Below, one piece after another: positions 648 through 49,382 of a DNA stretch of 50,792 nt. The position numbers and the translations under genes were made by a program. The notes beneath the pieces were generated by a model, which worked only from the letters and a program-made list of their open reading frames with translations, made no database searches and was not told the origin of the DNA. This stretch comes from a virus. The DNA lies in IMG/VR virus record IMGVR_UViG_3300015366_000230, positions 1 to 50,792 of that record. One strand, 5' to 3'. The stretch's first letter is position 1; each line of letters begins with the position of its first letter.

Positions 648-3600
648 TTAAATTACCATCCATCTTTGACCTGAAGAAACTGTTAATGAAACACCGCTTG
701 CAACAGTAATTGAACCTACAGAAAAGGCATTTGTTCCTGAAGCAATAGTGTAACTTGAATTTACGGTAGTTGAGTTAACAAAAAGACCGTTTGAAGCAAC
801 TACTTCTGGAGCAGATAAAGCGCCAGTAGAAGGATTAAAATTATATGCTGAATTGACATTAGCAGTGCCAAAAGTGCCAGAAGTGGTGCTATTAAATACC
901 GGATAGAAAGTAGCATTAGAACTGGTAGAAGTTACTGTAATTGTTGATCCTGCGCCTGAATATCCAGAATAGCCTGAAATACCCAAGCCACTATAACCTG
1001 AAATTCCTGAACCAGAATATCCAGATATACCCGAATATCCTGATGCGCCATTAGAACCTGTACCACCAGAATAGCCTGAATAACCAGAAGTCCCATTAGT
1101 TCCAGTACCGCCTGAATATCCAGAATAGCCCGATGTACCATTTGTACCTGTACCGCCAGAGTATCCGCTAAAGCCAGAATAGCCAGAAATACCAGAATAA
1201 CCAGAAATTCCAGAATAACCACTAAAGCCAGAATAACCACTTACTCCGCTTCCGCTATAACCACTTATTCCGCTAGTTCCTGAGTAGCCTGAGATACCTG
1301 AATAACCACTGTATCCACTTGTTGCTATTCCTGAGAAACCTGAGTAACCACTATAACCACTTGTTCCGCTTATTCCCGCTGTAATAGCTAAAAATAATGG
1401 ATGATTGTTTGCAAAATCAGTTGTGCCTGTGCCACCTGAAGATATAAGGCTAACTGGAACTGTCCAATAACTATTAGAAGTTCCAGCATTTATGTTTGTT
1501 GTTGCACCAGTAATTAACCATGACTGATAATTGGCACTTGCATTTTGATCTTGAATTGTAAATTTTTGTGTAGGTTGTAACAATGCTAAAAATATATCAA
1601 TATCATCGCCATTGTTTGTAAGATGATTAATATTAATTTGTGTAGCATTACTTTGTGTTGCAGTATTCCAAAGTAAATATCCACTTGCAGGTTGTCCACT
1701 TGTTTGGACTGCTTCTGCATAATATAAAAATAAACTAGATGATGAACCTTGTACACCTGAGAATCCGCTTAGTCCTGAGTAACCGCTTACACCCGACCAT
1801 CCGCTGTATCCTGAAAGTCCCGACCATCCCGATACCCCTGAGAATCCTGACCATCCGCTAGTTCCACTGTATCCCGATTCCCCACTCCAGCCACTGTAAC
1901 CCGATGTACCTGAGTAACCACTAAAGCCTGAATAGCCACTATAGCCTGATAAACCAGAATAACCACTTACACCACTTCCAGAGTAACCGCTTGTACCTGA
2001 GTATCCAGAAATGCCTGAGTAACCAGAAATTCCGCTTGCGCCTGAATAGCCTGATATTCCTGATCCAGAATAGCCAGAAATTCCTGAATCTCCGCTAAAT
2101 CCTGAGTAGCCACTTATACCACTATCGCCAGACCATCCAGAATATCCGCTAATACCAGAATCTCCGCTAAATCCAGAAATGCCTGAATCGCCTGAATAAC
2201 CGCTAAAACCAGAAATTCCAGAATCACCTGAATACCCATTTATTCCAGAATCACCGCTATAGCCGGAAATACCGCTATCGCCTGACCAACCAGAAATACC
2301 GCTATCGCCACTATAGCCAGATATGCCACTATCTCCAGAATAGCCACTTATTCCAGAGTCACCAGAAAATCCGCTAATACCACTATCTCCTGACCAACCC
2401 GAAATACCACTATCACCACTAAATCCGCTAATGCCTGAATCACCAGAAAATCCGCTATAACCAGAAATTCCTGAGTCACCAGAGAATCCAGATATACCAG
2501 AGTCACCTGACCAACCACTTATTCCTGAATCACCAGAAAAACCTGAGATACCGCTATCGCCAGAATAACCACTAATACCAGAATCACCACTATATCCAGA
2601 GATTCCTGAATAGCCTGATTCACCGCTATATCCTGATGTGCTATCTCCGCTATAACCAGAGAATCCTGAGTAACCAGAAAAGCCTACAATTTGACCAGCA
2701 TTAAACCATTCAGTACCATTCCATACCCACAAGTCACCATCAGAGATAACAATGTAGGCATCATTGACTTGATTGCCTGTAGGGGGTAAGTCAGCAGGTG
2801 TTGGTACTGATCCCAATAAATTAATGGATGTACCTTGTTGACCGCTATAACCCGAAAAACCTGAATAACCAGAAATACCAGAATAGCCTGAAGTGCTATC
2901 TCCTGAGTATCCTGAAATACCAGAATCACCAGATAAACCACTTGTTCCAGAATAACCAGAATAACCACTGATACCTGAATAACCTGATGTGCCTACACCA
3001 GAAAATTGTGTCCAAATAATAGGGGTTACATTAATAGTTCCAGCTACAGGAGCAATAACTACCCAACCTGTACTGCCATTAATAGTTCCATATTGAATAA
3101 AAGTAAAAGCACCGGGTACTTCTGACCAGATATTCATATCTAGCGATCTTGACCAAGCAGTTTCAGATACTACATAAATTCCATTTTCAGCAGGATCATC
3201 TTGGTTTTTTACACAAACTCGATCACCAACTAAAACAGTGTAATTATCAATAGTTTGTAAACCATAAAGATCAATGTTGTTACCTAAAGGAGTGGTAGCG
3301 CATTGACAAGATGCTTTAGCCACCATGCCTTGAGCTATTGCATCGGCATAGGCTTTATTTACTAAATCATTTGGGTTAACAGGCAAAGTATTAACTTGAC
3401 CTGTTACTGTAAACATATTTTGAAATACAGCGGAATACAAACCTTCTTGTAAACCTTCAATTTGAACAAAAGCTCGACCTGTTCCCGCAGTCATTAAATT
3501 GACTACAAAATCACCAATAGACCAAGCTCTAGCGACTGTTCCTTCTTGACCTCTAATAACTGTCCATACATTGCCAGTTACATTCGTAACATAAACAATC

Positions 3601-3773
3601 TCATTAATCAGATTATTTTTTGCGCTAACAATCGTAGCGGTAAAGGCTTGCCCTACTGCTGGGCTAGGAAAATTAACTGAAGTGCCACTAGCGACTGTAA
3701 TCGTTGTGGCTGTGCTGCTAACAGGCAGCGCAAGCGCAGTTTGGGCTTGATTAGAAAATAATAGTATTGTCAT
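648..3773 (-). CDS. Long collagen-like (Gly-X-Ser) tail fiber, 1041 aa
   Basis: The N-terminal ~110 residues (TTITVASGTSVNFPSP, IRGQEGTVARAW) are shared with the N-terminus of the 459-aa fiber at 4069-5448 and are probably the particle-binding anchor. From about residue 262 the chain is mostly Gly-X-Ser triplets with X = Tyr, Ile, Asp, Phe or Trp, that is collagen-like periodicity but almost without proline. Globular inserts interrupt it: about residues 312-365 (LLGSVPTPADLPPTGNQVND) and a ~125-residue domain beginning SSSLFLYYAEAV. The last ~110 residues are non-repetitive. A trimeric rod with globular knobs is the likely shape. The repeated DNA makes this gene prone to copy-number change and misassembly. 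Confidence 0.85.
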   Translation of the reverse strand: MTILLFSNQAQTALALPVSSTATTITVASGTSVNFPSPAVGQAFTATIVSAKNNLINEIVYVTNVTGNVWTVIRGQEGTVARAWSIGDFVVNLMTAGTGRAFVQIEGLQEGLYSAVFQNMFTVTGQVNTLPVNPNDLVNKAYADAIAQGMVAKASCQCATTPLGNNIDLYGLQTIDNYTVLVGDRVCVKNQDDPAENGIYVVSETAWSRSLDMNIWSEVPGAFTFIQYGTINGSTGWVVIAPVAGTINVTPIIWTQFSGVGTSGYSGISGYSGYSGTSGLSGDSGISGYSGDSTSGYSGISGYSGFSGYSGQQGTSINLLGSVPTPADLPPTGNQVNDAYIVISDGDLWVWNGTEWFNAGQIVGFSGYSGFSGYSGDSTSGYSGESGYSGISGYSGDSGISGYSGDSGISGFSGDSGISGWSGDSGISGFSGDSGISGYSGFSGDSGISGFSGDSGISGWSGDSGISGFSGDSGISGYSGDSGISGYSGDSGISGWSGDSGISGYSGDSGINGYSGDSGISGFSGYSGDSGISGFSGDSGISGYSGWSGDSGISGYSGFSGDSGISGYSGSGISGYSGASGISGYSGISGYSGTSGYSGSGVSGYSGLSGYSGYSGFSGYSGTSGYSGWSGESGYSGTSGWSGFSGVSGWSGLSGYSGWSGVSGYSGLSGFSGVQGSSSSLFLYYAEAVQTSGQPASGYLLWNTATQSNATQININHLTNNGDDIDIFLALLQPTQKFTIQDQNASANYQSWLITGATTNINAGTSNSYWTVPVSLISSGGTGTTDFANNHPLFLAITAGISGTSGYSGYSGFSGIATSGYSGYSGISGYSGTSGISGYSGSGVSGYSGFSGYSGISGYSGISGYSGFSGYSGGTGTNGTSGYSGYSGGTGTNGTSGYSGYSGGTGSNGASGYSGISGYSGSGISGYSGLGISGYSGYSGAGSTITVTSTSSNATFYPVFNSTTSGTFGTANVNSAYNFNPSTGALSAPEVVASNGLFVNSTTVNSSYTIASGTNAFSVGSITVASGVSLTVSSGQRWMVI

Positions 3774-4068: not shown

Positions 4069-5448
4069 TTAAGCTGTATATATTCCTGAAGTAGTAAATG
4101 TATGGATAGTAAATGTACCTGAAGTTGTTACTGTGCCTCCAGTACCACGCTGTGCGCCTGTATACCAAATAATTACAACACCTGAACCACCAACTCCAGT
4201 ATTTCTACCGCCTGAACCGCCACCAGTATTGGCTGTTCCATTTGTGCCGTTTCCGTATCCTGAATTTCCATCACTACCATTACCGCCACCACCAATACCG
4301 CCACCGCCTCCGCCATATCCTGCCGAAGCATCACTACCGCAACCGCCTCCGCCTCCGCCATAATAAGGAGTAGTTAAACCAATAGTGATCTGTACGCCTG
4401 CACCTCCACCGCCACCTGAACCTTGTGGAGTTGAACTACCATTATTTCCACCATTACCACCATTGGCAGTTGCTCCGCCACCACCGCCTAATGCAGTTGG
4501 CGAACCTGTGCTTGAGCCTCCGTTAAAGCCTTGACCACTTGTACCTGAACCACCAGAGCCGCCACCGCCTCCGCTACCGCCTGATCCACCAGAGCTACCA
4601 TTTCCAGCGCCAAAACCACCGCCTAAAGCAGTTGCTAATGTAGGTAAAACTGAATTAGAGCCTGTGCTGTAAGAGCCGCCAGCCCCAACAATAATGTTGT
4701 AAGTAGTTGAAGGAACAAAAACAGCAGAAGCATTAAAAACTACACCGCCAGCACCACCGCCACCAGTACCACCATTAGCTCCACCACCGCCACCAACCAC
4801 TAAATAACTTGCTGAATAAGCAGATGGGGCAGATGGATTTTGCAAAATAAAAAATCCATTTGATGCGCTATAAAGCAAAAGTAATGGATAACCAAAACCA
4901 GCGATATTTCCCGCTTCTAAAGCAACTCCATTTCCTTTAACAATAGGAGCTGGCGGTAAAATGGTTGACCCCATAGTAAGCTGCAAAGTTGCCGCGCCGG
5001 TATTGAGATTAGTAGATTTCAATACAAATAAAAAGCCGTCTGGAATAACTGTTAAATTTGATGTAATTTGACTTGTTAAAGCATTCGCTGTACCGCCAGC
5101 AACTCCAAAAGTATAAGTGCCAAGCTGTAATTGGTCTATTTGGATATTGTTTTCCATTGTTCCTTTAGTAGGATACATACCAAAACTATTGCCAGTCAGC
5201 CAAGTTTGAGCCGTTGTATTTTCTTGCGCTCTAACCACGGTGACGGTATCGCCTGATCTAGCTGTTACTAAAACAATTTCATAGCTAGTGCTAGAGCTGT
5301 TATAGATAGTGGCTAAAAATACTTGTCCAGAAGTTGGAGTTGGAAATAGCGAACCAGTACCCGCTTGAAGATAGATAGTGGTATCAGCGCTAGTAATCGG
5401 GCTTGCCAATGCGGATAAAGCATTATTAGCGAATTGCAAAATAGTCAT
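4069..5448 (-). CDS. Glycine-rich tail fiber/adhesin (459 aa)
   Basis: Residues 1-110 (MTILQFANNALSALASPITS, VVRAQENTTAQTW) match the anchor domain of the collagen-like fiber, showing that the two fibers are paralogs at their bases. A middle domain ends in SYLVVGGGGG, and the glycine-rich domain (about residues 215-415) consists of Gly runs separated by short polar or hydrophobic stretches, as in polyglycine-II adhesins. The C-terminus GAQRGTGGTVTTSGTFTIHT...GIYTA is shared with the fibers at 48471-49382 and 50132-50745. It is probably the receptor-binding tip; the known parallel is the S16 gp38 adhesin. Confidence 0.8.
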   Translation of the reverse strand: MTILQFANNALSALASPITSADTTIYLQAGTGSLFPTPTSGQVFLATIYNSSSTSYEIVLVTARSGDTVTVVRAQENTTAQTWLTGNSFGMYPTKGTMENNIQIDQLQLGTYTFGVAGGTANALTSQITSNLTVIPDGFLFVLKSTNLNTGAATLQLTMGSTILPPAPIVKGNGVALEAGNIAGFGYPLLLLYSASNGFFILQNPSAPSAYSASYLVVGGGGGANGGTGGGGAGGVVFNASAVFVPSTTYNIIVGAGGSYSTGSNSVLPTLATALGGGFGAGNGSSGGSGGSGGGGGSGGSGTSGQGFNGGSSTGSPTALGGGGGATANGGNGGNNGSSTPQGSGGGGGAGVQITIGLTTPYYGGGGGGCGSDASAGYGGGGGGIGGGGNGSDGNSGYGNGTNGTANTGGGSGGRNTGVGGSGVVIIWYTGAQRGTGGTVTTSGTFTIHTFTTSGIYTA

Positions 5449-5457
5449 AGCAAAACC

Positions 5458-6075
5458 TTAATAAGTAACATTGAAAGTATACTGGAAAGGGAGCTGTAAA
5501 GCACCTGAATTTATTGCCGCTTGCAAAATTGGCGCAAAAGTCACTAATGAGCTTGATGGGTTTATAGCTATATCCACTACGTTGTTGGAGGCAAAACTGA
5601 CGCCAATATCATAAGTATTTGGGATTGGAAGAGGAACCCCATTTTGTTGCGCCAAAAATCTATACACTCTGTTTTTTAACCAAACAGTATTAAATTGGAA
5701 TCCATCGCCTTTATAGAAATTCCAAGTAATTACTCGTTTAAAAATATCGTCCGTCGTTTCGTAAAAACCTGCTGGAGAAATAATAATGTTTTCGTTATAA
5801 ACGGTTGTATCGTAAACAGCTTCGTCATACACACCCGAAGATATAGTTCCAGAATAAGGTAAAACAGGTCTAAGAATACCGTATATACTGAGTGCCGTCC
5901 AATCTAATAAAGGAGCAATTTGAGTTGTATATACAGGTAAATTTAAATCATTTGTGTTATCTAAATAAGTTTGTGAGATATTGTTATATGCTGTAAAAAA
6001 CGCTTGTAAATCGTCAACATATACATCTTGCGTATATTGCTGATAAAGATAGGCTGGAAGAACCTTAGTCTGCAT
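5458..6075 (-). CDS. Baseplate protein, P2 gpI-like position (205 aa)
   Basis: It follows the J-like baseplate gene by one base, the position of the P2 I / Mu gp48 type baseplate protein that links the wedge to the fibers. The sequence is rich in Tyr, Asn and Val (LDWTALSIYGILRPVLPYSG, FKRVITWNFYKGDGFQFNTVW), as is usual for baseplate proteins of this group. The functional call rests mainly on gene order: gp25-like, J-like, this gene, then fibers. Confidence 0.65.
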   Translation of the reverse strand: MQTKVLPAYLYQQYTQDVYVDDLQAFFTAYNNISQTYLDNTNDLNLPVYTTQIAPLLDWTALSIYGILRPVLPYSGTISSGVYDEAVYDTTVYNENIIISPAGFYETTDDIFKRVITWNFYKGDGFQFNTVWLKNRVYRFLAQQNGVPLPIPNTYDIGVSFASNNVVDIAINPSSSLVTFAPILQAAINSGALQLPFQYTFNVTY

Positions 6076-6076
6076 A

Positions 6077-7708
6077 TTAGCCTTGAGTAATTGTGACTAA
6101 TTCAGTTGCAGTTTCAAAGTAACTTTCAGGGTCGCCATATATTAACCCTGTACCTGAAGAAGGGTTTACTACGTTTCCGTTAATAGTTACTGTAAATACC
6201 ATGCGAGAAAGTAGGGGTGCTGGCACTAAGTTAACAATAGCATTTTGAAATACATTTTGTAATTCAAATACATTGATTGGTTGCCCTACATAAATACTAT
6301 TAATGTAGTTAACAATTGCTGGATTACCTAGTTGAGCAACTGCTGAAGGAGATACATAGTTTAGTGATGTTGTATTCCAGACTAATCCAACCGTCACTGT
6401 TTGTACTGGGGGGATTACAAAAGTAATGTTGTAACTATCCGGATAGTCGTTAATAGAAACTATTTCGTTTCTCAAATTTGGAGTAACTATACCGCCGCTT
6501 ATATAAGTACCGGCGCTTGCAGAATCAAATCCGGTATACCCCAAAGTTCCAACTGTCCCGGGATTACTAGCCAAAGGATAAGTAAATGTTGTGGAATTTA
6601 CTTGAGTAAACGTATACGTACCGTTATAACCTGTAGGTGTGCATCCTGCAATAGAACCGCTAGTTGTACCTGAAGGTAATCCGTGTGGGTAAGCAGTAAC
6701 TACAGTTACGGTGCCTCCACCTGTGCTTGCCCATGTAATAGATGAAATTGCTACCGCAAGCGTAAATGTTTCTTGACCAGTAACTACCGCCACAAAAGGC
6801 ACGTTGTTAATACCTGACATTCCTGTGACGCCAGTGATATTAATGGTTTGACCAGTGGTATAGCCGTGAGTCAAATTAGTTGTTACGGCGGCTGAATATG
6901 CGTTTGTAATAGCTGTAATGCCTAGTGTTGATCCAGTTAACGTGGATATATCAAACACACTTTTAAAAATAGCGTTAGCAACAGAGTATGGGTCGCCACC
7001 GCCTACAATTATTTCCCATTGGGCAGTGCCTACTTCACGCACTGCAATAAGACGGGCTTGGACTCCAGACACTTTTTGTAACTGAGTTTTTAAAAAAGTC
7101 GGCATTCCTTGAGCTGAAGCCAATCCCGCTTGAACTACTTGTGCTCTATAGTCTTGAATTGGTTGAACCGATGCTCCGGGTAAACCCGCAGTTAAGTTTG
7201 TACACGTTAAAGTTACCCCTGAAGGGATAGAGGTAATAATCTGAGTGACAGTTCCAATTGGAACTGCCCATGAGCCAGCAGATGTAGCTAAGCAGTAAAG
7301 CGATACGCTTTGACCATTTGTCTGAATAATTCCGCCGTCTTGAACAGTGTATTGGTAACTACCATCGGACACGGTAAAACCAACTGGAATAATAAAACCC
7401 GGGCTGCCCGTAAAAGTTACATAAACCGAAGTGTTTGATCCAATCCCTTGTTGAACGCCATAGACTTGCCCTAATTGATAAAGAATTGAAGGGTTAGCTG
7501 TGGCGGGGCTAATTGAATTTACAAGATCTACAAAGGCTTGATCTTGAACTACTACGGCGCCCGCAGCGGTGGAAGCCATATCTTCAACTAAAGAACCGGG
7601 TAAATTGGCTGTTAAACCAGGCGCAAGAGCAGTCGCCGCCGCAATTTCAGCGTTTAAAAGATCTGTTGGAAGAGCTGGCACTGCGCCAGCGGTAGTAATT
7701 TGTGCCAT
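6077..7708 (-). CDS. Baseplate J-like protein (543 aa)
   Basis: The N-terminal half has typical J-like features: an Ala-rich start followed by EDMASTAAGAVVVQDQAFVD and a beta segment FTGSPGFIIPVGFTVSDGSY. The C-terminal part returns to the J pattern (SINDYPDSYNITFVIPPVQT). About residues 262-400 form an insert of two related beta modules with HGYTTGQTINITGVTG and HGLPSGT...GYNGTYTFTQVNSTTFTY; a related module is found in the sheath protein. J-like proteins form the outer baseplate wedge. The start codon overlaps the stop of the gp25-like gene, so translation is coupled. Confidence 0.85.
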   Translation of the reverse strand: MAQITTAGAVPALPTDLLNAEIAAATALAPGLTANLPGSLVEDMASTAAGAVVVQDQAFVDLVNSISPATANPSILYQLGQVYGVQQGIGSNTSVYVTFTGSPGFIIPVGFTVSDGSYQYTVQDGGIIQTNGQSVSLYCLATSAGSWAVPIGTVTQIITSIPSGVTLTCTNLTAGLPGASVQPIQDYRAQVVQAGLASAQGMPTFLKTQLQKVSGVQARLIAVREVGTAQWEIIVGGGDPYSVANAIFKSVFDISTLTGSTLGITAITNAYSAAVTTNLTHGYTTGQTINITGVTGMSGINNVPFVAVVTGQETFTLAVAISSITWASTGGGTVTVVTAYPHGLPSGTTSGSIAGCTPTGYNGTYTFTQVNSTTFTYPLASNPGTVGTLGYTGFDSASAGTYISGGIVTPNLRNEIVSINDYPDSYNITFVIPPVQTVTVGLVWNTTSLNYVSPSAVAQLGNPAIVNYINSIYVGQPINVFELQNVFQNAIVNLVPAPLLSRMVFTVTINGNVVNPSSGTGLIYGDPESYFETATELVTITQG

Positions 7709-8031
7709 TAGCTTGCCACCGTAGATTGAATAACTGTTCCGTTTTGAAATACTGCTGCTATATTGTATGTCGGATTGACTGCGTTTTGTTGTATCACAAC
7801 CGTTAAACTAGCAAAATGCGGTGCGTATTGTCCTTGAGTTCTATTTACTGCAATGTCGGGCGGAATTTGCGTCATAACCGAGTTTTGAGCTGGTATCCCA
7901 TAGTTTGCATAAAAAGGACTTTCCCCTTGATTTAATCGTAAAGTCTGAGCTAACGTAGCCAGCCATATATAACTGGTTTCGGTTACTTCTACCCATCGCT
8001 TTGTTGCTGGATCTACGCCATAAGTTCTCAT
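7708..8031 (-). CDS. Baseplate wedge protein, gp25/GPW-like (107 aa)
   Basis: The length (107 aa) and the pattern IWLATLAQTLRLNQGESPFYANYGIPAQNSV fit the T4 gp25 / P2 gpW family, in which a conserved short segment contacts the sheath initiation site. It lies between the spike (V-like) and J-like genes, the order found in P2, Mu and pyocins. Its start overlaps the stop of the spike gene by four bases (ATGA). Confidence 0.8.
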   Translation of the reverse strand: MRTYGVDPATKRWVEVTETSYIWLATLAQTLRLNQGESPFYANYGIPAQNSVMTQIPPDIAVNRTQGQYAPHFASLTVVIQQNAVNPTYNIAAVFQNGTVIQSTVAS

Positions 8032-8780
8032 ACTGGTTTTCCTGAATTATCACTACCTGCTCTAACTCCACTATGAACGTGGTTTTCAAGACTAATACTT
8101 CCAGCGGTAATATCGCCACCTGAAGCAATACCGCCCGTATTTGTAAGACTACCTGTTTGGTTAATGTTACCTGTTACATTCATCGTAGCTCCAGTGCCGC
8201 CGGTAATGTTAAATCCAGCGTCGCCCGTAATTAATCCATGTATAGTCAAATTTCCTATAATGGTAACGCCTGTTGCGTCTATAGTCATTTTGGTATTACC
8301 AATGGTGACTACGGTGCCTGTTGGAGTTAGTGTAATAACGCATTTATTACTGCTATCGCGAATTACAGCGCCATTTGGAGCATTAATATTAACGGCGTTA
8401 GGGTCAACTGACTCCCAATCTTTATTACCTAAAGGTACAAAAATAAGCCCACCAAGGTTAAAAGGCGTTGTTAATGGAGCTAACCCTTGTCCAAGCCCGT
8501 TGATCCCGCCCAAGCGTGTATCGGCTGCTATGCAGACCCCATAATCGCCTACTTGTACGGGAAGTCGTACGTAGTTACTTTCGGCAATAGCGCAAGTAAC
8601 TGGAGGAAACGTAAAATCGCCGCCAGTGTCGATTTCAAAATTAACTGTGACAATTGCACCGTTTACGGCGGTTACGCGCGCAGGTAATTGCAAACCAAAA
8701 TTTTCTTGATTTGAATTTAATCGATTTTGAATATATTCAGTAATCGTTACCGCAAAGGGGGTTTTTTGAGATAAATCCAT
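8028..8780 (-). CDS. Baseplate assembly/tail spike protein V-like (250 aa)
   Basis: The N-terminal domain (about 20-115) looks like the OB-fold of P2 gpV / Gp138 spikes (VNFEIDTGGDFTFPPVTCAI, VQVGDYGVCIAADTRLGG). It is followed by a repetitive beta stretch (TPTGTVVTIGNTKMTIDATG), consistent with a beta-helix needle. The C-terminus carries NHVHSG: an HxH motif of this kind binds an iron ion at the tip of the P2 and phi92 spikes. The protein punctures the outer membrane during injection. Confidence 0.85.
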   Translation of the reverse strand: MDLSQKTPFAVTITEYIQNRLNSNQENFGLQLPARVTAVNGAIVTVNFEIDTGGDFTFPPVTCAIAESNYVRLPVQVGDYGVCIAADTRLGGINGLGQGLAPLTTPFNLGGLIFVPLGNKDWESVDPNAVNINAPNGAVIRDSSNKCVITLTPTGTVVTIGNTKMTIDATGVTIIGNLTIHGLITGDAGFNITGGTGATMNVTGNINQTGSLTNTGGIASGGDITAGSISLENHVHSGVRAGSDNSGKPV

Positions 8781-8782
8781 AA

Positions 8783-9778
8783 TTAAAAAGCTACCCCGGG
8801 CATAACTGCATCAATAACGGTTACCCAACTATCTCCGTTTGGCTGTCTACTGCTGCCAATATGATGCAGTTTATTAATCATAAAAGAACCGTTAAATGCC
8901 AAATTATTTCTAAATTGAGAGTTATTATTAATTACGTTATTCACTGGGATGTGATTCTGAAACGTAATATAATCCCCAACATTTAAATCAGCTCTCATAG
9001 TGACTCGAGCTTGAATAGTGGCGATGTCAATCCAAGTAAGGTTTCCGATAACATCGGTAAAAGCTATTTGTTTTGTGCCTGTAGGTGCTATTGTGGAATC
9101 GCTCAATAAAAACCCTTGGCTAGTAGCGGTAATACTTGCACCAGCGTATGTTGGACTTGGATTAATCCAACGGCTAATTTCTTGTACTTTTTTAGCAAAA
9201 GCAATGAAGCTAGTAAACTGCCCTTTTGCATCTTCGGTATATACTAAATTTGAGCTAAAGCTACCTGAAATATTGGTGTTAGCTCCGTACGCGTTTTTTA
9301 ACGCTTGTGTAACGGCTTCCGTTAAAGTTTGACCTTTATCCCATGCCATAGTGATATTGGCAACTGCGTTTGGATTTACTTGCGCGGGGATAAGTACAAT
9401 GTCTAATCCTACTTCGGTACCTTGCCACGTAGAAAAAGATTGCAGTATGGAGCCATTTACAATTACTCCGGCTTGGTTTGGATTAGCAAAGGGTAAACCC
9501 TTAGACATTCCAACACCAATTTGAATTTTGGCATAGTCATAACCCAAACCGCTTGCTTGTTTGACAGGGTTAAACCCTGCTTTTTGTCCTAAATCTTTTA
9601 AATCTACACCCCAAAGTTTTATGTGGCTATTTCCAGCGGGTTGATGATACCAAGTTTGAAACACGTCTAAATCAAGCCGTAGGCATGAGTAATTATCAAC
9701 GCCAAGAACTGATTGTGAATTAAAAGTTATTGGTGAAGAAGATTTTACGGGTGTGATCTGGACAGAGTATGACCTCAT
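8783..9778 (-). CDS. Baseplate hub protein (331 aa)
   Basis: It is placed between the small plug-like gene and the spike gene, where contractile-tail phages encode the hub (gpD / Mu gp44 type) that holds the spike. The sequence contains two beta-rich halves and a segment VGDYITFQNHIPV that suits a tail-tube-like fold. No catalytic motif is seen. The call rests on position and size; sequence alone is not decisive. Confidence 0.65.
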   Translation of the reverse strand: MRSYSVQITPVKSSSPITFNSQSVLGVDNYSCLRLDLDVFQTWYHQPAGNSHIKLWGVDLKDLGQKAGFNPVKQASGLGYDYAKIQIGVGMSKGLPFANPNQAGVIVNGSILQSFSTWQGTEVGLDIVLIPAQVNPNAVANITMAWDKGQTLTEAVTQALKNAYGANTNISGSFSSNLVYTEDAKGQFTSFIAFAKKVQEISRWINPSPTYAGASITATSQGFLLSDSTIAPTGTKQIAFTDVIGNLTWIDIATIQARVTMRADLNVGDYITFQNHIPVNNVINNNSQFRNNLAFNGSFMINKLHHIGSSRQPNGDSWVTVIDAVMPGVAF

Positions 9779-10047
9779 GGGGTAATCTCGAAATTCCCGC
9801 TACTTGCTCTATAAACAAGCTTTGAAGTTTGAAAATATCCGTATACCAAATCAATATCGAAATGATCGGGCGATGAAATAATTGGGTTAGTCACAATTAA
9901 ATTACCCGAGTTATCGTAAATACTTATGTAATACCTTGGTGCATATATGTTCCAAGTACAGATTGCTACATAAGTAATCCCGTCTAAAGTTGGATTAAAC
10001 TGAAAATTAGCATATTGTGACGGATTAAAATTAACAATAGTGGTCAT
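9775..10047 (-). CDS. Baseplate plug-like protein (90 aa)
   Basis: A 90-residue protein (ANFQFNPTLDGITYVAICTW, RYYISIYDNSGNLIVTNP) whose pattern of an aromatic strand followed by YYISIYD resembles the small phage baseplate plug family (DUF6983-like). It overlaps the hub gene by four bases (ATGA) and follows the upstream tail gene with a similar overlap. Family assignment is from memory of the pattern. Confidence 0.6.
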   Translation of the reverse strand: MTTIVNFNPSQYANFQFNPTLDGITYVAICTWNIYAPRYYISIYDNSGNLIVTNPIISSPDHFDIDLVYGYFQTSKLVYRASSGNFEITP

Positions 10048-10676
10048 TGTGGTACCACGCTTTCACCGGGGGCTAATCCTAATGGGTTTGTCCAATTTGT
10101 AGTGGTTGGCAATCCGTTTGAAACGGCGTTCATTAAAGTGCCTTGAATTGACTCGGCGGCAGATTGCGTAATCAAAGGTTGCACAAAATCCCATTGATAC
10201 ATATATTGAACTTGTTTATCGCTGGCAGGCGTGATATCGCGCAAGCTAGTTAATAAGCAATTAAAATAAGTGTATGCTGGTGTGATTACAGTAAAAGTTC
10301 CACCTGTAGAAATATGAGTTTGAATACCTAATTGCAACGCGGTAAGAATCGCTTGCTTTAAGGTATAGCCTCCGTGAGTTTGTGCGGGGCAAACCATTAG
10401 CATACTAACGTCTAAAGGTTGCTGTACAACTGCATTGGCAGCCGTAGCAAAGTTAGCGAATGGATATGTCGCTACATCCCATTTTGCCAAACTACCGCCG
10501 GGGAGCGGTTTAAAATGAGCAAAAAATTCACCATTTTCAATACCGGGTATATCAAACATTTCTGTGAGCAAAGTCACGGGGGCGTATCCACCTAATAAAT
10601 TAGCAAGTCCGCCTTGTAGCCAAATCGGAGCTATTTCATAAACTGCTGAAAAAGCGGTTTGTCCAAAAGAAGCCAT
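10044..10676 (-). CDS. Tail/baseplate structural protein (210 aa)
   Basis: It lies directly after the tape-measure gene and before the plug-like gene, overlapping the latter by four bases. The sequence has a Pro/Ala-rich C-terminus (NWTNPLGLAPGESVVPQ) and a central helix-rich part (LKQAILTALQLGIQTHI). It is probably a baseplate hub-associated or tube-initiator protein of the type that usually follows the tape measure. No specific family was recognised. Confidence 0.55.
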   Translation of the reverse strand: MASFGQTAFSAVYEIAPIWLQGGLANLLGGYAPVTLLTEMFDIPGIENGEFFAHFKPLPGGSLAKWDVATYPFANFATAANAVVQQPLDVSMLMVCPAQTHGGYTLKQAILTALQLGIQTHISTGGTFTVITPAYTYFNCLLTSLRDITPASDKQVQYMYQWDFVQPLITQSAAESIQGTLMNAVSNGLPTTTNWTNPLGLAPGESVVPQ

Positions 10677-10678
10677 AT

Positions 10679-12223
10679 TTATCTTCCTGTCGTTCCAGCT
10701 AATTGAGCTGTTGCATTTGGTATGGATGTGCCCGGGGCGCCTTCAAAAGTAATTTGCATAGCATAATTTTGTCTGCGGCTTCTCTCAACGGGGTCAATTT
10801 GATAATTGTAATATCTTTCGTAATTAATATTAGCTTCGACGCCTTCTTTACGACCTACACCGCTTTGCAAGCGTTTTAAGGTAGCTGCTTCGGTATTCAT
10901 TAATTCCCAACGCATAAAGGCAACTTGTTCATCGTCGGGGGTAGATGTAGTTAAAGGGTGACCCATCACTTTTGCAAAAAGCGCTTGTCTAGCTTTACCC
11001 CATTGGGCAAGACCGATATGACCGCCGCCAATATCATTACTAGCTGCGGGATTAAATCCACTTTCACCGTATAAGCCACCCATAAAACCAGCGATTACAT
11101 CGGGTTTAACGCCTAAACCACCCAACATCATTGCGGTTTTTTGCGCGGCGGAATTTAGTTGTACTTGATCTTTACCAAGTACTTTATGTTCCCAATTACC
11201 GATTTGTTGCATTCCTTGATAAGAACCAGCCACAAATCCGGGGATCTTTGAGACTACCCATGCAATAGCTTGTCCAAGCATTGCCAAGCCATTAAAAAAT
11301 TCTTTGATCTGCTGTTTACCTTCTGGACTATTGATAAACTCAGTTAAATCCTTAATTGCGCTTTTTACTTCATCGCTTTTAAGGAAATCTGCAATAGCTT
11401 GTTCGACTGCTTGAGTAAGCTGAATTAATGGCTGAGTCAACCCTTCTAGGTTGTCTAGCAAATTTACTTCAATAGAGTTTCCAGCTTCGCGAATTTTTAC
11501 CCAAAAATCTTGCCAGCGTTTGCTGCTTTCTTCTGATAGTTTGAATTTTTGTAGTCCTTCTGCTGCATCGCGAGCAGATTTATCGAGATCTTCAATACTG
11601 GTTTTTGCAAGGCGAATTAAATTTTCTTCGCCGCCAACCAAATCTGTCCACCCCATTGTTTTTGCATAGGATAAGTTTTGACCTGACCCGAGAAACTGCT
11701 CGCGAATTGTTTTAAGCATGGGCGCCAAATTTTGATAGGCATCTTTATCCATGCTGCCACCAGCATTAAATAGCTTCCAAGATTCTTCAGGTGTGCGCTG
11801 AATCCGAGCAATATTCGCCAAAGTAGACTCGGGATCAATGTAACGCCCATAGTAGACGTTTGCTGATCGTAATTGAGCTGTGCTTACACCCGCGCCTTGC
11901 GCGCGGCGATAAACATCGCTTCCTGAAGCAGCTAACGCTCCAAAACCAAAGCCGGTGCCGGCGGCGCTAAAAGCAACCCATTTTGCCGCAGATATAGCCA
12001 TAGATGCCATATTGCGAGCAATATTAAATGTAGATACGGATAAATCTTTAAAAGTCGCAGAAACGTCTTTTGCGGACTTATTGACCTTATCAAAATGCTT
12101 ATTGATGTCTTGCCATTTTTTGGATTGCTGATCCATTTGTTTGATGTATTTATCAAACGTGGCTTGAAAAGCTTTAAACTTTTCATCTTGGACATCAATC
12201 TCAATAACACTTTTTACAGCCAT
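10679..12223 (-). CDS. Tail tape measure protein with C-terminal lysozyme domain (514 aa)
   Basis: The N-terminal ~75 residues form a charged coiled coil (VQDEKFKAFQATFDKYIKQM), followed by a hydrophobic stretch around 70-105 (NMASMAISAAKWVAFSAAGT). Long helices continue to about residue 380. From about 385 to 480 there is a tail-lysozyme-type peptidoglycan hydrolase domain (GFMGGLYGESGFNP, GHIGLAQW, FMRWELMNTE), with the Glu of YGESGF as the likely catalytic acid. A tape measure of this size implies a short tail, about 75 nm if the usual 1.5 angstrom per residue applies. Confidence 0.85.
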   Translation of the reverse strand: MAVKSVIEIDVQDEKFKAFQATFDKYIKQMDQQSKKWQDINKHFDKVNKSAKDVSATFKDLSVSTFNIARNMASMAISAAKWVAFSAAGTGFGFGALAASGSDVYRRAQGAGVSTAQLRSANVYYGRYIDPESTLANIARIQRTPEESWKLFNAGGSMDKDAYQNLAPMLKTIREQFLGSGQNLSYAKTMGWTDLVGGEENLIRLAKTSIEDLDKSARDAAEGLQKFKLSEESSKRWQDFWVKIREAGNSIEVNLLDNLEGLTQPLIQLTQAVEQAIADFLKSDEVKSAIKDLTEFINSPEGKQQIKEFFNGLAMLGQAIAWVVSKIPGFVAGSYQGMQQIGNWEHKVLGKDQVQLNSAAQKTAMMLGGLGVKPDVIAGFMGGLYGESGFNPAASNDIGGGHIGLAQWGKARQALFAKVMGHPLTTSTPDDEQVAFMRWELMNTEAATLKRLQSGVGRKEGVEANINYERYYNYQIDPVERSRRQNYAMQITFEGAPGTSIPNATAQLAGTTGR

Positions 12224-12232
12224 TTTGATTTC

Positions 12233-12463
12233 CTACAATAAAGTTTTGCTTTTTATCGCTCTAATTAAATGTCTTTGACGATATTCTGAAGCATCGTCAA
12301 ATTTACCGCCAACTTCTTTCATAAGTTCATCAAAATGCTTGTAAGTGATAAAGTCTAAGATACTATGGATGATTCCTTCACCTTCTTGCCAGTACTTTCT
12401 GTCTTGGTCAATGTCGGTAAGCCATTCTGATACCCCGTAGAGTCCAAGGATGTAAGTTCCCAA
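12233..12463 (-). CDS. Tail assembly chaperone, T-part in the -1 frame
   Basis: This frame overlaps the end of the 194-aa chaperone gene and is shifted by -1 relative to it. Its first possible start is a TTG without a convincing ribosome site, and the frame stays open for about 80 codons further upstream inside the first gene. That is the arrangement of lambda G/GT and P2 E/E', where a -1 ribosomal frameshift makes a longer fusion protein. The product (ITYKHFDELMKEVGGKFDDA) is charged and helical. It lies between tube and tape measure as expected. The fusion rather than a free 76-aa protein is likely. Confidence 0.7.
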   Translation of the reverse strand: MGTYILGLYGVSEWLTDIDQDRKYWQEGEGIIHSILDFITYKHFDELMKEVGGKFDDASEYRQRHLIRAIKSKTLL

Positions 12464-12939
12464 TTTCGCAGCGCACCTGCCATCTCCAAAAAGGAATTCT
12501 TTAAATCCTTCGGTGCGACTTTGGAGATTGCTGTAAAAAACACTAGAGAGCTTAATACCTCGGCTTCTTCATCTTCACTTAGAACTTCTCTTTTTACTGC
12601 TACGTCAAAGGGAATGGTTTCCCATCCCTTTTCTGTACTTACTATCACATTAGTTAAACGAATAATTTCATTTACTAACCCAAATTTTACGCCACCAGCT
12701 CCATCCCAATTTCCCGCTTTTGTTGCTATAGACTTCAAAGCAGCGTAAGCGAGTTGGGGTGCAGATAAGGCTAAATGAGCCTGACTAATACCATCAAAAC
12801 ATTGGCTAAATACTTTGCCTAACTCTAAATAAAATTGTTCAAATACAGATCGACTAATAGAAGTGGAGTGAATGTAGATTGTTCCATTTTCATCAGTCTG
12901 CACCTGCATCACAAGGGACAGATTACGATCGATTTTCAA
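12355..12939 (-). CDS. Tail assembly chaperone, G-part (194 aa)
   Basis: It stands between the tail tube and the tape measure, the fixed place of the G-type chaperone that coats the tape measure during tail assembly. The N-terminus is beta-rich (LVMQVQTDENGTIYIHSTSI) and the rest helical. The last 36 codons overlap the -1 frame at 12233-12463. Near-slippery runs are visible on the minus strand at 12486-12494 (CCTTTTTGG) and 12535-12540 (six T), but neither is a perfect X XXY YYZ heptamer in frame. Confidence 0.75.
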   Translation of the reverse strand: MKIDRNLSLVMQVQTDENGTIYIHSTSISRSVFEQFYLELGKVFSQCFDGISQAHLALSAPQLAYAALKSIATKAGNWDGAGGVKFGLVNEIIRLTNVIVSTEKGWETIPFDVAVKREVLSEDEEAEVLSSLVFFTAISKVAPKDLKNSFLEMAGALRNWELTSLDSTGYQNGLPTLTKTESTGKKVKESSIVS

Positions 12940-12953
12940 TTTTTATCCTTTCA

Positions 12954-13397
12954 TTATGCTGCGTCAAATAGCGTTGAGTTGATGTTGTATACGCCGCGTA
13001 AACGAACAACTAGACCAGCCTGATTACCGTCAAACGCAGTTTCTTGAATACTCATCAAAACACAGTTATTTAATTGAAATGGCGGCAATACTTGGGTATC
13101 TGGGTAAATCGTTACAGAACCTAAAGTAGTGTTTGTTTCAATTTGGTTTTTATAAGCAGCGCCAAGAGCTTGAGTTCTTAACAAGTGCATCGTTACTGTT
13201 CCGTAAACATACGGTTCTGGGCTTGTAACAGCGCCAGTCAGGGTTCCAATAAGCAATGAAGTATCGCCATCAAAAGCCAAACTGATTGCTTCGCGAGCTA
13301 GATATCCAGCAGTGACATTTAATTGCGTATAGTCAGCGTATACAACGCTGGCTAGTAGCCTATTTAATGTACCTTGTTGAATTTGTGGATTTGACAT
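12954..13397 (-). CDS. Tail tube protein (147 aa)
   Basis: Directly downstream of the sheath gene, 147 residues long, as for myoviral tube proteins. It begins MSNPQIQQGTLNRLLASVVY and has strand-rich segments ending GLVVRLRGVYNINSTLFDAA. The position between sheath and chaperone pair is the main evidence. The phrase IGTLTGAVTSPEPYVYGTVT matches the pattern of tubes in which a sigma of beta strands lines the lumen. Confidence 0.75.
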   Translation of the reverse strand: MSNPQIQQGTLNRLLASVVYADYTQLNVTAGYLAREAISLAFDGDTSLLIGTLTGAVTSPEPYVYGTVTMHLLRTQALGAAYKNQIETNTTLGSVTIYPDTQVLPPFQLNNCVLMSIQETAFDGNQAGLVVRLRGVYNINSTLFDAA

Positions 13398-13409
13398 TAT
13401 TTATTCTCC

Positions 13410-14723
13410 TTAAACTGGAATGTTAGATGCAGTTAAGTAAATAGTAATGGAGCTAAATCCTCTAGCTGGAACAAATGTCAAGCTTAAGCCGTTATAAGTT
13501 CCTGTAGCGTAATCACTAGGATGTTGCGCTACATATTTTACAAACGAAATTGCATTAACAGTTGCAGGGCTAAGAATTAATCCAAACGAAATACCGTTAT
13601 TAACTGTTGCTTGGGCTACTTTCTGCAAAGTATTAATACCTGCTTGATTGTAGTACAACGGATTAGTCGGTAAATTACTTCCGTTAATAATTGCATTAGC
13701 TAAAGCTTGAGCAACATTAATCGCAAGCCAATCTACGCAATACCAGTAATTAAAGGGGTTCAAGTCCATGAACGTACCGCCTTCAATTAAAGTGTTACTG
13801 ATACCGCCTTGTGCGCCAGTTCCAACCCAATTTACGCCCGCTGCCAACAATGTTGTTTGTTGTGCGTTAGTTAATGCGCTATACGCAGTAACAGCATATA
13901 CATAAGTGTATTCCAACGGATGTGCTAAATTACTTGCGCTAGGGTTGTAACTTAATGTTGCCCAAAAAATTGCGGCAGCACTAAATTCGCTAATTGGAGC
14001 TGAAGGGCTTGGCAATGTTACAAAAACAGATTTAATACCTTCCCAACCACTATATGTTGCTAAAGTAGATGATACATAGAAATATATTTGGGCAGTCGTG
14101 CCTGTATATTGCTTAGCCATTGTTTGAACGGCAGAAGTATCCCATGTTTTAGGCAATAAATAGCTGTAAAACTGAATAGTTGGGTTTGTGATATATGCTT
14201 CTAACGCACTAACGCCTTGTGCAATAGTACCTACACCTAACTCCAACACATAAACTGGAACAGTCGCGCCTTGAGCAAAAAAAGTATTTGCCATAGCAAC
14301 CAATTCAGACACATCTTCAAGCGTAAAAAATGCACCTGTTGTTACTGCCGTACCGGGATTACCTGTAACAGCATAAGTTAACGTGTAGACGCCTGTAGAA
14401 GTAACAGCAAAAGTACCGTTATATCCGTTATTTACGCTACCGCTAACAGTTACTCCTGCAATAGTCCCCTCAACTTCATCTCCAAGAGGAATTCCGTGAG
14501 CAACGGTAGTTGTAAGTGTTACAACACCACCAGACCAAGTAGCAGAAGTAATGGCGCTTGAACTAGCTAAAATAGCCGTCAAATCGCTCACTTGAGTCAA
14601 CAGTTGAGTTGACCCTGCTGATAAAGTTGTTGCGCCTTGAGATATAAAGGCTCCAGTCTGTTGCAATTTATTTGGCGCACTTGCCACCTGTTGGGTGACA
14701 ACTACATTGACAATATTTGGCAT
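13410..14723 (-). CDS. Contractile tail sheath protein (437 aa)
   Basis: It begins MPNIVNVVVTQQVASAPNKL, with the first beta strand typical of sheath N-termini, and ends with a strand-rich region (LSLTFVPARGFSSITIYLTA) that suits the C-terminal sheath handshake strand. The central part has the sheath-like VYVLELGVG...ALEAYI pattern. About residues 58-130 carry an inserted beta module (AHGIPLGDEVEGTIAGVTV, NNGYNGTFAVTSTGVYTLTY) related to the inserts of the J-like baseplate protein. It forms the contracting outer tail layer. Confidence 0.8.
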   Translation of the reverse strand: MPNIVNVVVTQQVASAPNKLQQTGAFISQGATTLSAGSTQLLTQVSDLTAILASSSAITSATWSGGVVTLTTTVAHGIPLGDEVEGTIAGVTVSGSVNNGYNGTFAVTSTGVYTLTYAVTGNPGTAVTTGAFFTLEDVSELVAMANTFFAQGATVPVYVLELGVGTIAQGVSALEAYITNPTIQFYSYLLPKTWDTSAVQTMAKQYTGTTAQIYFYVSSTLATYSGWEGIKSVFVTLPSPSAPISEFSAAAIFWATLSYNPSASNLAHPLEYTYVYAVTAYSALTNAQQTTLLAAGVNWVGTGAQGGISNTLIEGGTFMDLNPFNYWYCVDWLAINVAQALANAIINGSNLPTNPLYYNQAGINTLQKVAQATVNNGISFGLILSPATVNAISFVKYVAQHPSDYATGTYNGLSLTFVPARGFSSITIYLTASNIPV

Positions 14724-19490: not shown

Positions 19491-20330
19491 TTATCGCTTA
19501 ACATTTTCAGTATTAAACTTCACGACCCGATGAGTTGGGAGCTTGAAGTCACCTAACCATGCTTCCATATCACCACGGTATTCAGTGATGGTACGACCAG
19601 CTTGGTCTTTCTTGTGCAACGCGATCAATTGACCTTTTGCGATTGCGCCAGTTCCACGGGAAGCAGCCAAAGCGTCAGCGTAAACACGTTTTTCAACAAG
19701 AGCCAACATTGCGTTGTCTTTAATTGAATTTACGTTAATACTCTTCATTTCATCGCTATGAGCTTGCAAACCGCGCACCATACGCTTACGATAAGCCATT
19801 AAAGTTTCGCCTTGCAATGGGCGTGATGCAGATTTACCAAAAGCAGAATAAACAGAATCAGCTTTAGCTTGTGCATCGCACATAGCAGCTTCTTCGTCAT
19901 CTTTTTTAGCAGCTTCTTCATCGTCATCTTTACGGTCATCTTCTTCATCGTCGTCTTTTTTGAACTCCATGTGACCCGGATGTTCAACTTCGCCTTCGTC
20001 GTCTGGCTTAATTTCACCAGCTTTGCCGTGCTCTTTAGGATCAGATCCTTCTGCGTCTTTTTTAGCTTTACGCATCATGAATTTTTTAGCTTTGGCTTCA
20101 GACTCATCGTCATCTTTCTTAGCTTCTTCTTCTTCGTCGTCGTCGCATGCTTCCATGTCGTCATCTTTTTTCGCTTTAGCTTTTTTATCAGCCGCAGTTA
20201 CTAGTGGTGGCGCAGGAAGGTTTTTTTCCATTTCATCTAAACGGGACATTGTTTTGCCCAGTAAAGACATAATGGCATCTAATTTATCGCCTTGGGCATC
20301 TGCCTTTGGCTCAATCTTATTTTCAGTCAT
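19491..20330 (-). CDS. Scaffold-type protein (279 aa)
   Basis: The start was set at the ATG at 20330 (MTENKIEPKADAQGDKLDAI): it overlaps the upstream TGA and is preceded by GAGGTG. The N-terminal ~40 residues form a coiled coil, followed by ~110 residues of almost only Asp, Glu and Lys (KKDDDMEACDDDEEEEAKKD). The C-terminal part is helical (RPLQGETLMAYRKRMVRGLQ). Charged, helical proteins between protease and capsid genes act as scaffolds. The same C-terminal pattern is seen in phage proteins of unknown function, so scaffold is an inference. Confidence 0.65.
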   Translation of the reverse strand: MTENKIEPKADAQGDKLDAIMSLLGKTMSRLDEMEKNLPAPPLVTAADKKAKAKKDDDMEACDDDEEEEAKKDDDESEAKAKKFMMRKAKKDAEGSDPKEHGKAGEIKPDDEGEVEHPGHMEFKKDDDEEDDRKDDDEEAAKKDDEEAAMCDAQAKADSVYSAFGKSASRPLQGETLMAYRKRMVRGLQAHSDEMKSINVNSIKDNAMLALVEKRVYADALAASRGTGAIAKGQLIALHKKDQAGRTITEYRGDMEAWLGDFKLPTHRVVKFNTENVKR

Positions 20331-22140
20331 TTTCAGACACCTCATTGTTAGTTAATAAAACTCCAGCGGCGTCGCCGCCTTTGTCCCATACTCCCTTTGA
20401 ACCCCTAGCTTTCGTAACGATTGCTATGTGATCCAGCAGGAATGGCACACCCTCAATCAAGAGTGGCTCGCCATTCTCGGTTGTAAGTGTAATGTTACCA
20501 GCAGTATTATCAAATACAACTGCTGGGGAAGTTGATACCTCACCTTCCAAAATTTCTTTAATTGCATCTTGGTCATAGATTTTTGCAATACCCCAGACTT
20601 CATCACCTTTAATGTAAGGTAGCAAAACGGAACCAACGGCACGGTTTTTAAATTCTTCTGTTGTTAATACTTGAGTTTCAGGGTGATCCATAATCACCAT
20701 TAAGCCATTACAGCGTTGTAAAAACTCGTTGTTTAAGTACAAAGATGGATCGCGCCAAACGTGTTCACCAATGCTTGAACGGAATGCCAAACCTGTACCT
20801 GTAATGCGAATTGCTAACAAAGCAATATTGGCATACATCTGTGGGCTGGCTAATAAATCTTCAGAAATCAGTTTAGCTACGTCAGTTTCGGTTTTAGCCA
20901 TAGCAATTTTGAACGCATTTTCTAAGCCCGGGTGAAGTGGCATCGGAGGCACCGTTGGACTACACCAATCGGAACCCGAAGATTCGTAGTTAAGCTTTAC
21001 TTCTTCTTTTACAAAGTTGTGAGCAACGTAATAGCAAAATTGTCCATCATCATAAAGAACTTCTAAATCGCCTTTATAATCGATGCCCGTTTCTTCTTTA
21101 CATTCACGGCGAGCGCATTCTTCAAGGGTTTCATCGCCTTTTTGATGTCCGCCGGGGATACACCAAGTACCGGGATAATCCCCACCACCCATACCTCTGC
21201 GAATCATTAAAACTTCTTCGTTAGGAGTGATAAACATAATTCCCGCAGCTCTACCTTGAGCGCCACCCATATTATCTTCAGGCTTTACTTCTTTTGGTGG
21301 TTCTGGTACTAATGCTGCGTTTTGTTCAATTGGCTCGTTTTCGGCATCTGGTACGCAATTCGGTACGCTTTTTCCGTCTTTTTCTTTCATACCATATTGG
21401 GTATAACCTTCCCAACATGGATCATCATCTGGAATAGCTTGTGCATATTCAATTAATGCGTCGCACATTTCTTCTAAATGGCTTTGCGCTTCATCAGCAT
21501 CGCATTTCCATTTTCGCAATGACTTATTGATTCTTGAATCAGGATCGTGAGCCGTCTTTTCAGAAGTAAGTTTGGCTTTCATGCCCTTCATTCGAGCGCA
21601 AAATGATTCTTTTCTTGACCCACCTTTAGGCTGAGGGGCTTTTAAATGCGCGCCATGTTCTTTGTTGTAAGATTCACGACCTTTTTCATTTAAACCACCA
21701 TTTTTGTTTTTGCCTTCTTTGGTCTGCCAAGCTTCAGAATCTTCAACACCAAAACGCGGTACGACTTCCTCATCGCAATCGTCGTCTTGTTTCATGGATT
21801 TGACATGTTGAGCAACTTGATAAAGTTTTTCGCCAATGTCTTTAATTTGCAATTTGCGTAGTTCGTGGCTTAATTCGCCTTTGCGAACCATGATATTGCT
21901 ATCAGTTTCAAACTCTGTTGGAGCTAAAAGTACAGGTGCAGATACCAAAGAATCTTCTTTTAAGGCTTTTACTTCCATTTCTTTTAATAAAAGTTCATTA
22001 AGCCACTCAAGATTTTCAGCTTCGCTGTCATCTTTGTGTTTTACAAATTTTTCGCCAACAGATTGTGGAATACCAATATTAGAATGCCCTGCGGCAGCAG
22101 CGTACATCGCTTTTCTTTGGTTTTCCGACTTAAATGGCAT
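20323..22140 (-). CDS. Head maturation protein: DUF6321-Nudix-DUF2213 protease-like fusion (605 aa)
   Basis: Several parts are visible. The N-terminus MPFKSENQRKAMYAAAAG is a motif seen in phage head proteins. About residues 139-205 read GGLNEKGRESYNKEHGAHLK...PKGGSRKESFCARM, the DUF6321 pattern. About 295-385 is a Nudix hydrolase domain with a complete Nudix box at 331-353 (GX5EX7REXXEEXG; RECKEETG). About 445-590 resembles DUF2213 (RDPSLYLNNEFLQRCNGLMV, EGEVSTSPAVVF), a phage family placed beside scaffolds and thought to include prohead proteases. The gene lies between Mu F-like protein and scaffold, the usual protease position. Nudix substrate is unknown. Confidence 0.75.
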   Translation of the reverse strand: MPFKSENQRKAMYAAAAGHSNIGIPQSVGEKFVKHKDDSEAENLEWLNELLLKEMEVKALKEDSLVSAPVLLAPTEFETDSNIMVRKGELSHELRKLQIKDIGEKLYQVAQHVKSMKQDDDCDEEVVPRFGVEDSEAWQTKEGKNKNGGLNEKGRESYNKEHGAHLKAPQPKGGSRKESFCARMKGMKAKLTSEKTAHDPDSRINKSLRKWKCDADEAQSHLEEMCDALIEYAQAIPDDDPCWEGYTQYGMKEKDGKSVPNCVPDAENEPIEQNAALVPEPPKEVKPEDNMGGAQGRAAGIMFITPNEEVLMIRRGMGGGDYPGTWCIPGGHQKGDETLEECARRECKEETGIDYKGDLEVLYDDGQFCYYVAHNFVKEEVKLNYESSGSDWCSPTVPPMPLHPGLENAFKIAMAKTETDVAKLISEDLLASPQMYANIALLAIRITGTGLAFRSSIGEHVWRDPSLYLNNEFLQRCNGLMVIMDHPETQVLTTEEFKNRAVGSVLLPYIKGDEVWGIAKIYDQDAIKEILEGEVSTSPAVVFDNTAGNITLTTENGEPLLIEGVPFLLDHIAIVTKARGSKGVWDKGGDAAGVLLTNNEVSEND

Positions 22141-48470: not shown

Positions 48471-49382
48471 TTAAGCTGTGTAAGTGCCAGAAGTAGTAAA
48501 GGTATGGATTGTGTTGCCACCGCTAAAAGTTACAGTACCACCAGTTCCTTTTTGTGCGCCAGCATAAGAAATAATGACTATTCCAGAACCACCACTAGCG
48601 CTTCCGCCTCCGCCTCCGCCAGTATTAGCAGTAGCGCTTGAACCTCCGTTACCTCCGCCACCAGCACCACCAGAACCAGCGCCAGCGCCACTTACGGTAG
48701 AAGCACCACCACCACCGCCAGAATAAGATGTGGCTGTTCCTGAAATTGTAGAAGAAGTACCAGCGCCACCGTTTCCTGAAGCGCCAGTTCCCCCATTTGC
48801 ACCGACAGCAGCAGAACCTCCGCCTCCGCCAGCGCCATAGTTAGCACTTCCTGTGCTTGTACCACCTGCGTTTCCTTGCCCTGCAGTTCCAGCGCCACCA
48901 GACCTAGCAGTAAAATCCTGTCCACCACCACCGCCACCTGAACCGCCAGAAGTTCCATTTGAACCAGGGCTACCAACACCACCATATCCACCGCCAATGG
49001 CTGTTTGTGTAAATCCTGTTGAATTGTTGCCAGCAGCGCCAGCGCCCCCTCCAGCACCTACAGTAATCGTATAAGCAGTTGTAGGGGTAATTGAAGCAGT
49101 AGAAATAATTAAACCGCCAGCACCTCCACCTCCTGAAGAACCACTATTACCACCCCCACCACCTCCAGCAGCAATTAAATAATTTACTGAATAAGTAGTT
49201 AATGTGATTTGTTGCCAACTACCATTAGCATAAATTTCTACATAATTTAATGTAGTATTAAATCTTGTTGAACCAGTAGTAGGACTAGACGGTCTTTGTG
49301 CTGTAGTTCCTATTGGCAAATCTAAACTTTGCGTTGTAGTACTAGCATCAATGCCAGTAGAACCATTAATAATAACCGTCAT
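48471..49382 (-). CDS. Glycine-rich tail fiber/adhesin (303 aa)
   Basis: The first 70 residues (TVIINGSTGIDASTTTQSLD, IGTTAQRPSSPTTGSTRFNT) are a short fiber-type head as found in many phage fibers. The glycine-rich domain begins at NYLIAAGGGGGG and runs to about residue 270. The C-terminus GAQKGTGGTVTFSGGNTIHT...GTYTA is shared with two other fibers of this genome. It lies between the glycosyltransferases and the cupin-like gene; a receptor-binding role is likely. Confidence 0.75.
   Translation of the reverse strand: MTVIINGSTGIDASTTTQSLDLPIGTTAQRPSSPTTGSTRFNTTLNYVEIYANGSWQQITLTTYSVNYLIAAGGGGGGNSGSSGGGGAGGLIISTASITPTTAYTITVGAGGGAGAAGNNSTGFTQTAIGGGYGGVGSPGSNGTSGGSGGGGGGQDFTARSGGAGTAGQGNAGGTSTGSANYGAGGGGGSAAVGANGGTGASGNGGAGTSSTISGTATSYSGGGGGASTVSGAGAGSGGAGGGGNGGSSATANTGGGGGGSASGGSGIVIISYAGAQKGTGGTVTFSGGNTIHTFTTSGTYTA

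Follow-up and report, generated by a model that had tools for sequence, protein, structure and literature searches.

What is the small β module that recurs in the tail proteins of this virus, and why should it sit in both sheath and baseplate? The question arises from the virus record IMGVR_UViG_3300015366_000230, whose full 50,792 bases make up the stretch considered here (hereafter, the window). The genes for the sheath and for a J-like protein both lie on the minus strand, inside a contractile-tail gene block. The relevant parts are as follows:

13410..14723, minus strand: tail sheath protein, 437 aa; PHROG 205 (tail sheath), E 1.6e-33; fold match to the Sf14 sheath, Z 20.8
14322..14555, minus strand: sheath module, aa ~57-134; predicted sheath-type, FCCH-like barrel; HGI at aa 76
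6077..7708, minus strand: J-like baseplate wedge protein, 543 aa; PF04865, 23.5 bits (cut-off 21.1); PHROG 6 (baseplate wedge), E 3.5e-20
6752..6937, minus strand: J module 1, N-terminal part, aa ~258-319; predicted FCCH domain (PF16190); HGY at aa 281
6536..6751, minus strand: J module 2, aa ~320-391; sheath-type, nested in a loop of module 1; HGL at aa 342
6476..6535, minus strand: J module 1, C-terminal part, aa ~392-411, placed by alignment with relatives that carry module 1 only; the structural alignment extends to model residue 163
5458..6075, minus strand: protein encoded after J (PHROG 8212); without a module in the window, a third module host in relatives

Sequence and predicted fold both support a conserved sheath core in the window protein, and the J-like protein passes the PF04865 cut-off. 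The window copy of the protein after J has no Pfam match (its label DUF2612 comes from the PdC23 record), and NCBIfam gave no match for this protein, the J-like protein, or the sheath.

A preliminary description placed one module in the sheath and two, in tandem, in the J-like protein. The places and the kinship hold; the tandem layout does not. BLASTP aligns the sheath copy with J residues ~320-390 at 40% identity over 77 columns (36.6 bits), above the top score against the sheath copy from 1000 residue shuffles of J (27.7 bits). An HMM of sheath copies only matches the window J copy at E about 1e-20, and found no other convincing match among the 201 window ORFs of at least 60 aa (next E 0.69). 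In hhalign comparisons, the sheath copy matches the nested J copy (probability 99.9, E 1.4e-31) and J module 1 (probability 97.1, E 5.5e-11). Together, these comparisons indicate that all three copies are homologous, module 1 being the divergent one. The motif first used to join them, HG(I/L)P.G......G..GYNGT(F/Y), has an exact match in neither protein: relative to it, the sheath copy has a five-residue insertion ahead of YNGT, and the first J copy is without its P and without YNGT.

The two J copies are nested. A full sheath-type copy interrupts module 1 at aa ~319/392; in relatives that carry module 1 only, the module is continuous. The predicted structure gives the same picture: 78-79 model residues between 9 and 163 match a single FCCH domain, with the middle skipped. 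Tandem duplication within J was considered and rejected, because the second copy falls between two parts of what is one module in module-1-only phages; the N- and C-terminal parts of the window module align to one module in RothD, PdC23, and vB_YenM_21.09. Automatic alignment of the module-1-only rows was ambiguous (one run put their second half on the nested copy), and these rows were therefore left out of the alignment used for modelling, which holds 29 rows: 8 nested J rows and 21 sheath modules.

By sequence and predicted fold, J module 1 belongs to the FCCH domains, small β-barrels of eukaryotic ubiquitin E1 enzymes. PF16190 (E1_FCCH) matches 38 of 38 J-region rows, with a best E of 8.5e-13; the window J region scores 31.1 bits when scanned alone (cut-off 29.5), and the whole protein 26.9. 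A profile of the 29 module-1-only rows finds the mouse UBA1 FCCH domain (2lzj) at E 1.6e-6, and further UBA1 and UBA6 chains at E 5e-6 to 7e-5. The AlphaFold model of J (mean pLDDT 87; nested copy about 90 or more in blocks of ten) superimposes on UBA6 FCCH residues 212-292 (7pvn/7sol) with Z 10.2 and rmsd 1.3-1.6 over 78-79 aligned residues, at about 27% identity. Eight rows lie behind the module-1 part of this model, and of the five AlphaFold models one clearly outperformed the others. Foldseek found no match to the J model in the PDB at E ≤0.001 (best 1.6e-3). The phage module has in common with UBA1 the landmarks HG..TG, NG, and TFS. In E1 enzymes, FCCH barrels are themselves insertions. 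Here, by comparison, the host is a phage baseplate protein and a second module interrupts the domain; the kinship does not imply any ubiquitin machinery.

The FCCH domain is not new to phages. Matches in BFVD include proteins of uncultured phages (Caudovirales) named for the FCCH domain, along with fibres, and FCCH-annotated Vibrio phage proteins (1.021.A, for example) match module 1; phage FCCH domains are thus already known to databases. Among the entries returned by literature searches (FCCH, E1_FCCH, or ubiquitin-activating E1, with phage or tail fiber), no paper on a phage FCCH domain was found. What differs from those annotated proteins is the setting: a contractile-tail sheath, nesting within a J-like protein, and relatives with empty or alternative sites. 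The set of homologous accessory barrels, one nested in another, is real, and represents a known domain family in a new arrangement; its function is something we infer.

The sheath-type copy, on profile comparison, is a diverged relative of FCCH module 1. Its direct match to E1_FCCH is weak (9 of 32 rows, best E 0.0019; the window copy is unmatched). PHROG 9998 matches all 32 rows; 701 and 19630 (virion structural) match 18 each, and 529 (tail fiber) matches 10. Searched against PDB sequences, the sheath-type profile gave nothing significant (best the CV39L lectin, E 0.092), and the sheath profile gave no match. In the AlphaFold model of the sheath, the strands of the module run from E56-64 to E125-127 with pLDDT about 81-96 in blocks of ten. 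The mean over the model is 74; the C-terminal core is poor in parts, and the sheath fold is clear. The common fold expected in the preliminary description was borne out by hhalign, the two AlphaFold models, and matches in the PDB.

Relatives show the module sites both occupied and empty. Site A is the insertion site used in the window, and site B is another loop. Among 68 distinct IMG/VR J sequences that span the region, 49 carry module 1 only and three carry none; the nested copy is at site A in 12, at site B in two, and at both in two. Six reference phages were fetched: J module 1 is present in RothD, PdC23, vB_YenM_21.09, and QDWS, and its site is empty in Rac-SA53 and vB_Apl-pPE4. The sheath module is found in 84/84 spanning sheath rows (49/49 distinct) and in five of the six reference phages, QDWS being the exception. 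The protein after J carries a module in 6 of 66 distinct spanning sequences. These occupancy counts are biased towards presence, because some loci were fetched by peptide patterns that lie inside modules (NNGYNGTF, TGMSGINN). One locus fetch used 80 of 162 matches; counts not marked distinct include contigs with more than one locus, and only rows that span the insertion site were counted. The empty sites support the module as an added, dispensable domain.

Two further loci deserve mention. The sheath of the Shewanella phage vB_Sb_QDWS (locus L147, 10739-12061) is without the FCCH-like module; further along, it carries a different insert, marked by GGSGYTSAPTVTF-type repeats. A 1481-aa protein encoded elsewhere (locus L063, 7466-11908, plus strand) has one clear and two weak matches to the sheath-type module.

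Modules diverge faster than the cores that host them. Mean identity in the sheath is 0.60 for the module and 0.69 for the core, the module being lower in 73% of pairs; in J it is 0.63-0.65 for modules and 0.72 for the core. Against the nearest relative of the window (L051), the sheath module is 0.59 identical and its core 0.88, and J module 2 is 0.73 identical and its core 0.94. In a tree of 65 distinct modules, copies group by insertion site. One branch (bootstrap/SH-aLRT 96/93) separates sheath and site-B J copies on one side from site-A copies and those in the protein after J on the other. Many forks in this tree do not resolve, because the module is short. Between sites, mean identities are 0.47-0.58, with a maximum of 0.74. 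Recent copying within one genome is not supported, given the grouping by site and this maximum. On a J core tree of 72 rows, module 1 needs two changes, site A six, and site B two, as counted by a quick method that gave long-branch warnings. Since modules cluster by site rather than by genome, their spread appears to have been slow. The pattern is compatible with a few old transfers and vertical descent thereafter, and looks as if an accessory decoration domain had spread slowly from one tail protein to another.

These results suggest a model in which loops of tail proteins have received, as accessory inserts, small FCCH-type β-barrels of one family. Module 1, an FCCH barrel, occupies one such loop in the J-like protein; the sheath-type version, which has diverged, occupies the N-terminal part of the sheath and, in this phage, a hairpin loop within module 1 as well. 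Because the ends of the barrel probably lie close together, exposed loops, including those of its own kind, could take it up without disturbing the host fold. Most likely, the barrels decorate the outside of the tail and offer weak accessory contacts to the host surface or to adjacent subunits. We consider this explanation probable as a whole. What the analysis shows is the homology, the nesting, the empty sites, and the predicted fold; outward exposure, function, and the route by which copies moved are what we infer.

Decoration of the exterior is the best reading, and here the analogies are instructive. In the published sheath models of Evseev et al. 2022 (PMC9230969), the extra domains sit at a distance from the tube and have been proposed to serve adhesion and stability; there, as here, a domain is added to a conserved sheath core. 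The differences are that the present domain is FCCH-like, not Ig-like, and is common to baseplate proteins too. In phage T1, residues 16-94 of the tail-tube protein gp41 form an Ig-like domain that extends outside the tube, according to passages of PMC11945409. The J model matches this tail-tube chain (PDB 9l0f chain G, 14-97) with Z 6.9 and rmsd 2.6, although identity is only 18% and the T1 host protein is a non-contractile tail tube. The T1 domain, as those passages have it, decorates the tail exterior. The surface decoration proposed in the preliminary description thus gains support by analogy with T1 and the published sheath models. As to what the decoration does, accessory adhesion may be the leading role, at somewhat below an even chance; stabilising contacts would be a lesser candidate, with near-neutral decoration about level with them.

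Whether the modules are what they seem, and how they came to occupy several proteins, can be asked of other readings. They might be ordinary phage Ig-like domains, the label given to most of the extra sheath domains in the sections of PMC9230969 consulted, and to the matching T1 domain in those of PMC11945409. Single members also match Ig-like Pfam families at E 0.032 and 0.081. The best Ig-like score, however, is 14.7 bits (PF16403), far under the 27-bit cut-off, whereas the E1 FCCH domain ranks first both by sequence and by fold; this reading is disfavoured and seems improbable, although the lack of an Ig β-sandwich among the top fold matches does not by itself disprove one. Indeed, the T1 domain ranks with FCCH folds, so its Ig-like label may deserve a second look. 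A more serious possibility is that other phages supplied the sheath and J copies independently, in place of copying within one lineage. Grouping by site is in keeping with that history, as is the modest identity of the sheath and J copies in the window (47%). Yet the tree joins site-B J copies to the sheath copies and sets both apart from the site-A and after-J copies, and a sheath-type query of the phage collection at E ≤0.01 returned 10 records, none of them outside the sheath of this phage group. Independent acquisition stands at perhaps one chance in three. Because copies cluster by site, active mobility is only a candidate, and old transfers or uptake from other phages account for the pattern just as well. 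A bolder proposal, that FCCH-type barrels form a slowly mobile tail cassette inserting into tail-protein loops, their own copies included, and that the eukaryotic E1 FCCH domain descended from the same pool of insertion-prone barrels, is in our judgement unlikely.

Two other readings concern function. The modules could be barrels that bind glycans and so keep the phage attached to polysaccharide of its host or environment, much as the endosialidase barrel binds sialic acid; portions of a preprint (PMC12632334) describe in the endosialidase NF barrel a sialic-acid site with S460, S468, and G504. The nested copy (model 68-144) resembles endosialidase NF 425-504 at 20-22% identity, but the match is weak, and its Z scores of 4.8 and 4.6, being under 5, are within the noise level of the comparison tool. 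PF12195 (endosialidase β-barrel) weakly matches 3 of 38 rows (best E 0.017), and a relative of the module in Vibrio phage PS25B.1 belongs to a protein whose annotation includes a chitin-binding domain. The residues HG, G, and NG are invariant; together with TFS, they are landmarks also found in the FCCH domain of E1/UBA1, and thus read as signatures of the fold rather than as evidence of sugar binding. Compared with the endosialidases of phages K1F and phi92, there is no catalytic propeller here, and glycan binding by the phage module is hypothetical; we regard it as doubtful. Alternatively, the modules could act as cement, contacting neighbouring sheath or baseplate subunits and so stabilising the extended tail, a role proposed for additional sheath domains in passages of PMC9230969. 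Retention of the sheath copy in every spanning sheath row fits that role, but those rows were partly chosen by a peptide pattern from the module itself. The QDWS sheath does without the module, J modules are gained and lost among relatives, and modules diverge faster than cores; cementing, too, is tentative, and no likelier than glycan binding.

One small barrel family serves as an interchangeable insert in the sheath, the baseplate wedge protein, and the product of the next baseplate gene. This ties a named part of the ubiquitin E1 enzyme to phage structural modules, and suggests that certain tail decorations labelled Ig-like, that of T1 for example, are FCCH-like. The natural empty, single, alternative-site, and double states make the role of the module testable by deletion.

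Other features of the record were noted in passing. The product of 648-3773 (minus strand) is a collagen-like tail fibre (PF01391, E 4.4e-56) in which GYSGISGYSG-type repeats run over a long stretch. It and the product of 4069-5448 (minus strand), both putative fibres, appear by eye to have an N-terminal region in common (MTIL.F.N.A..AL), perhaps an attachment domain. The glycine-rich domain PF21722 occurs in the products of both 4069-5448 and 48471-49382 (minus strand), at opposite ends of the record. Finally, a protein encoded near the head genes (20323-22140, minus strand) has, by eye, an apparent Nudix box (GGHQKGDETLEECARRECKEETG).
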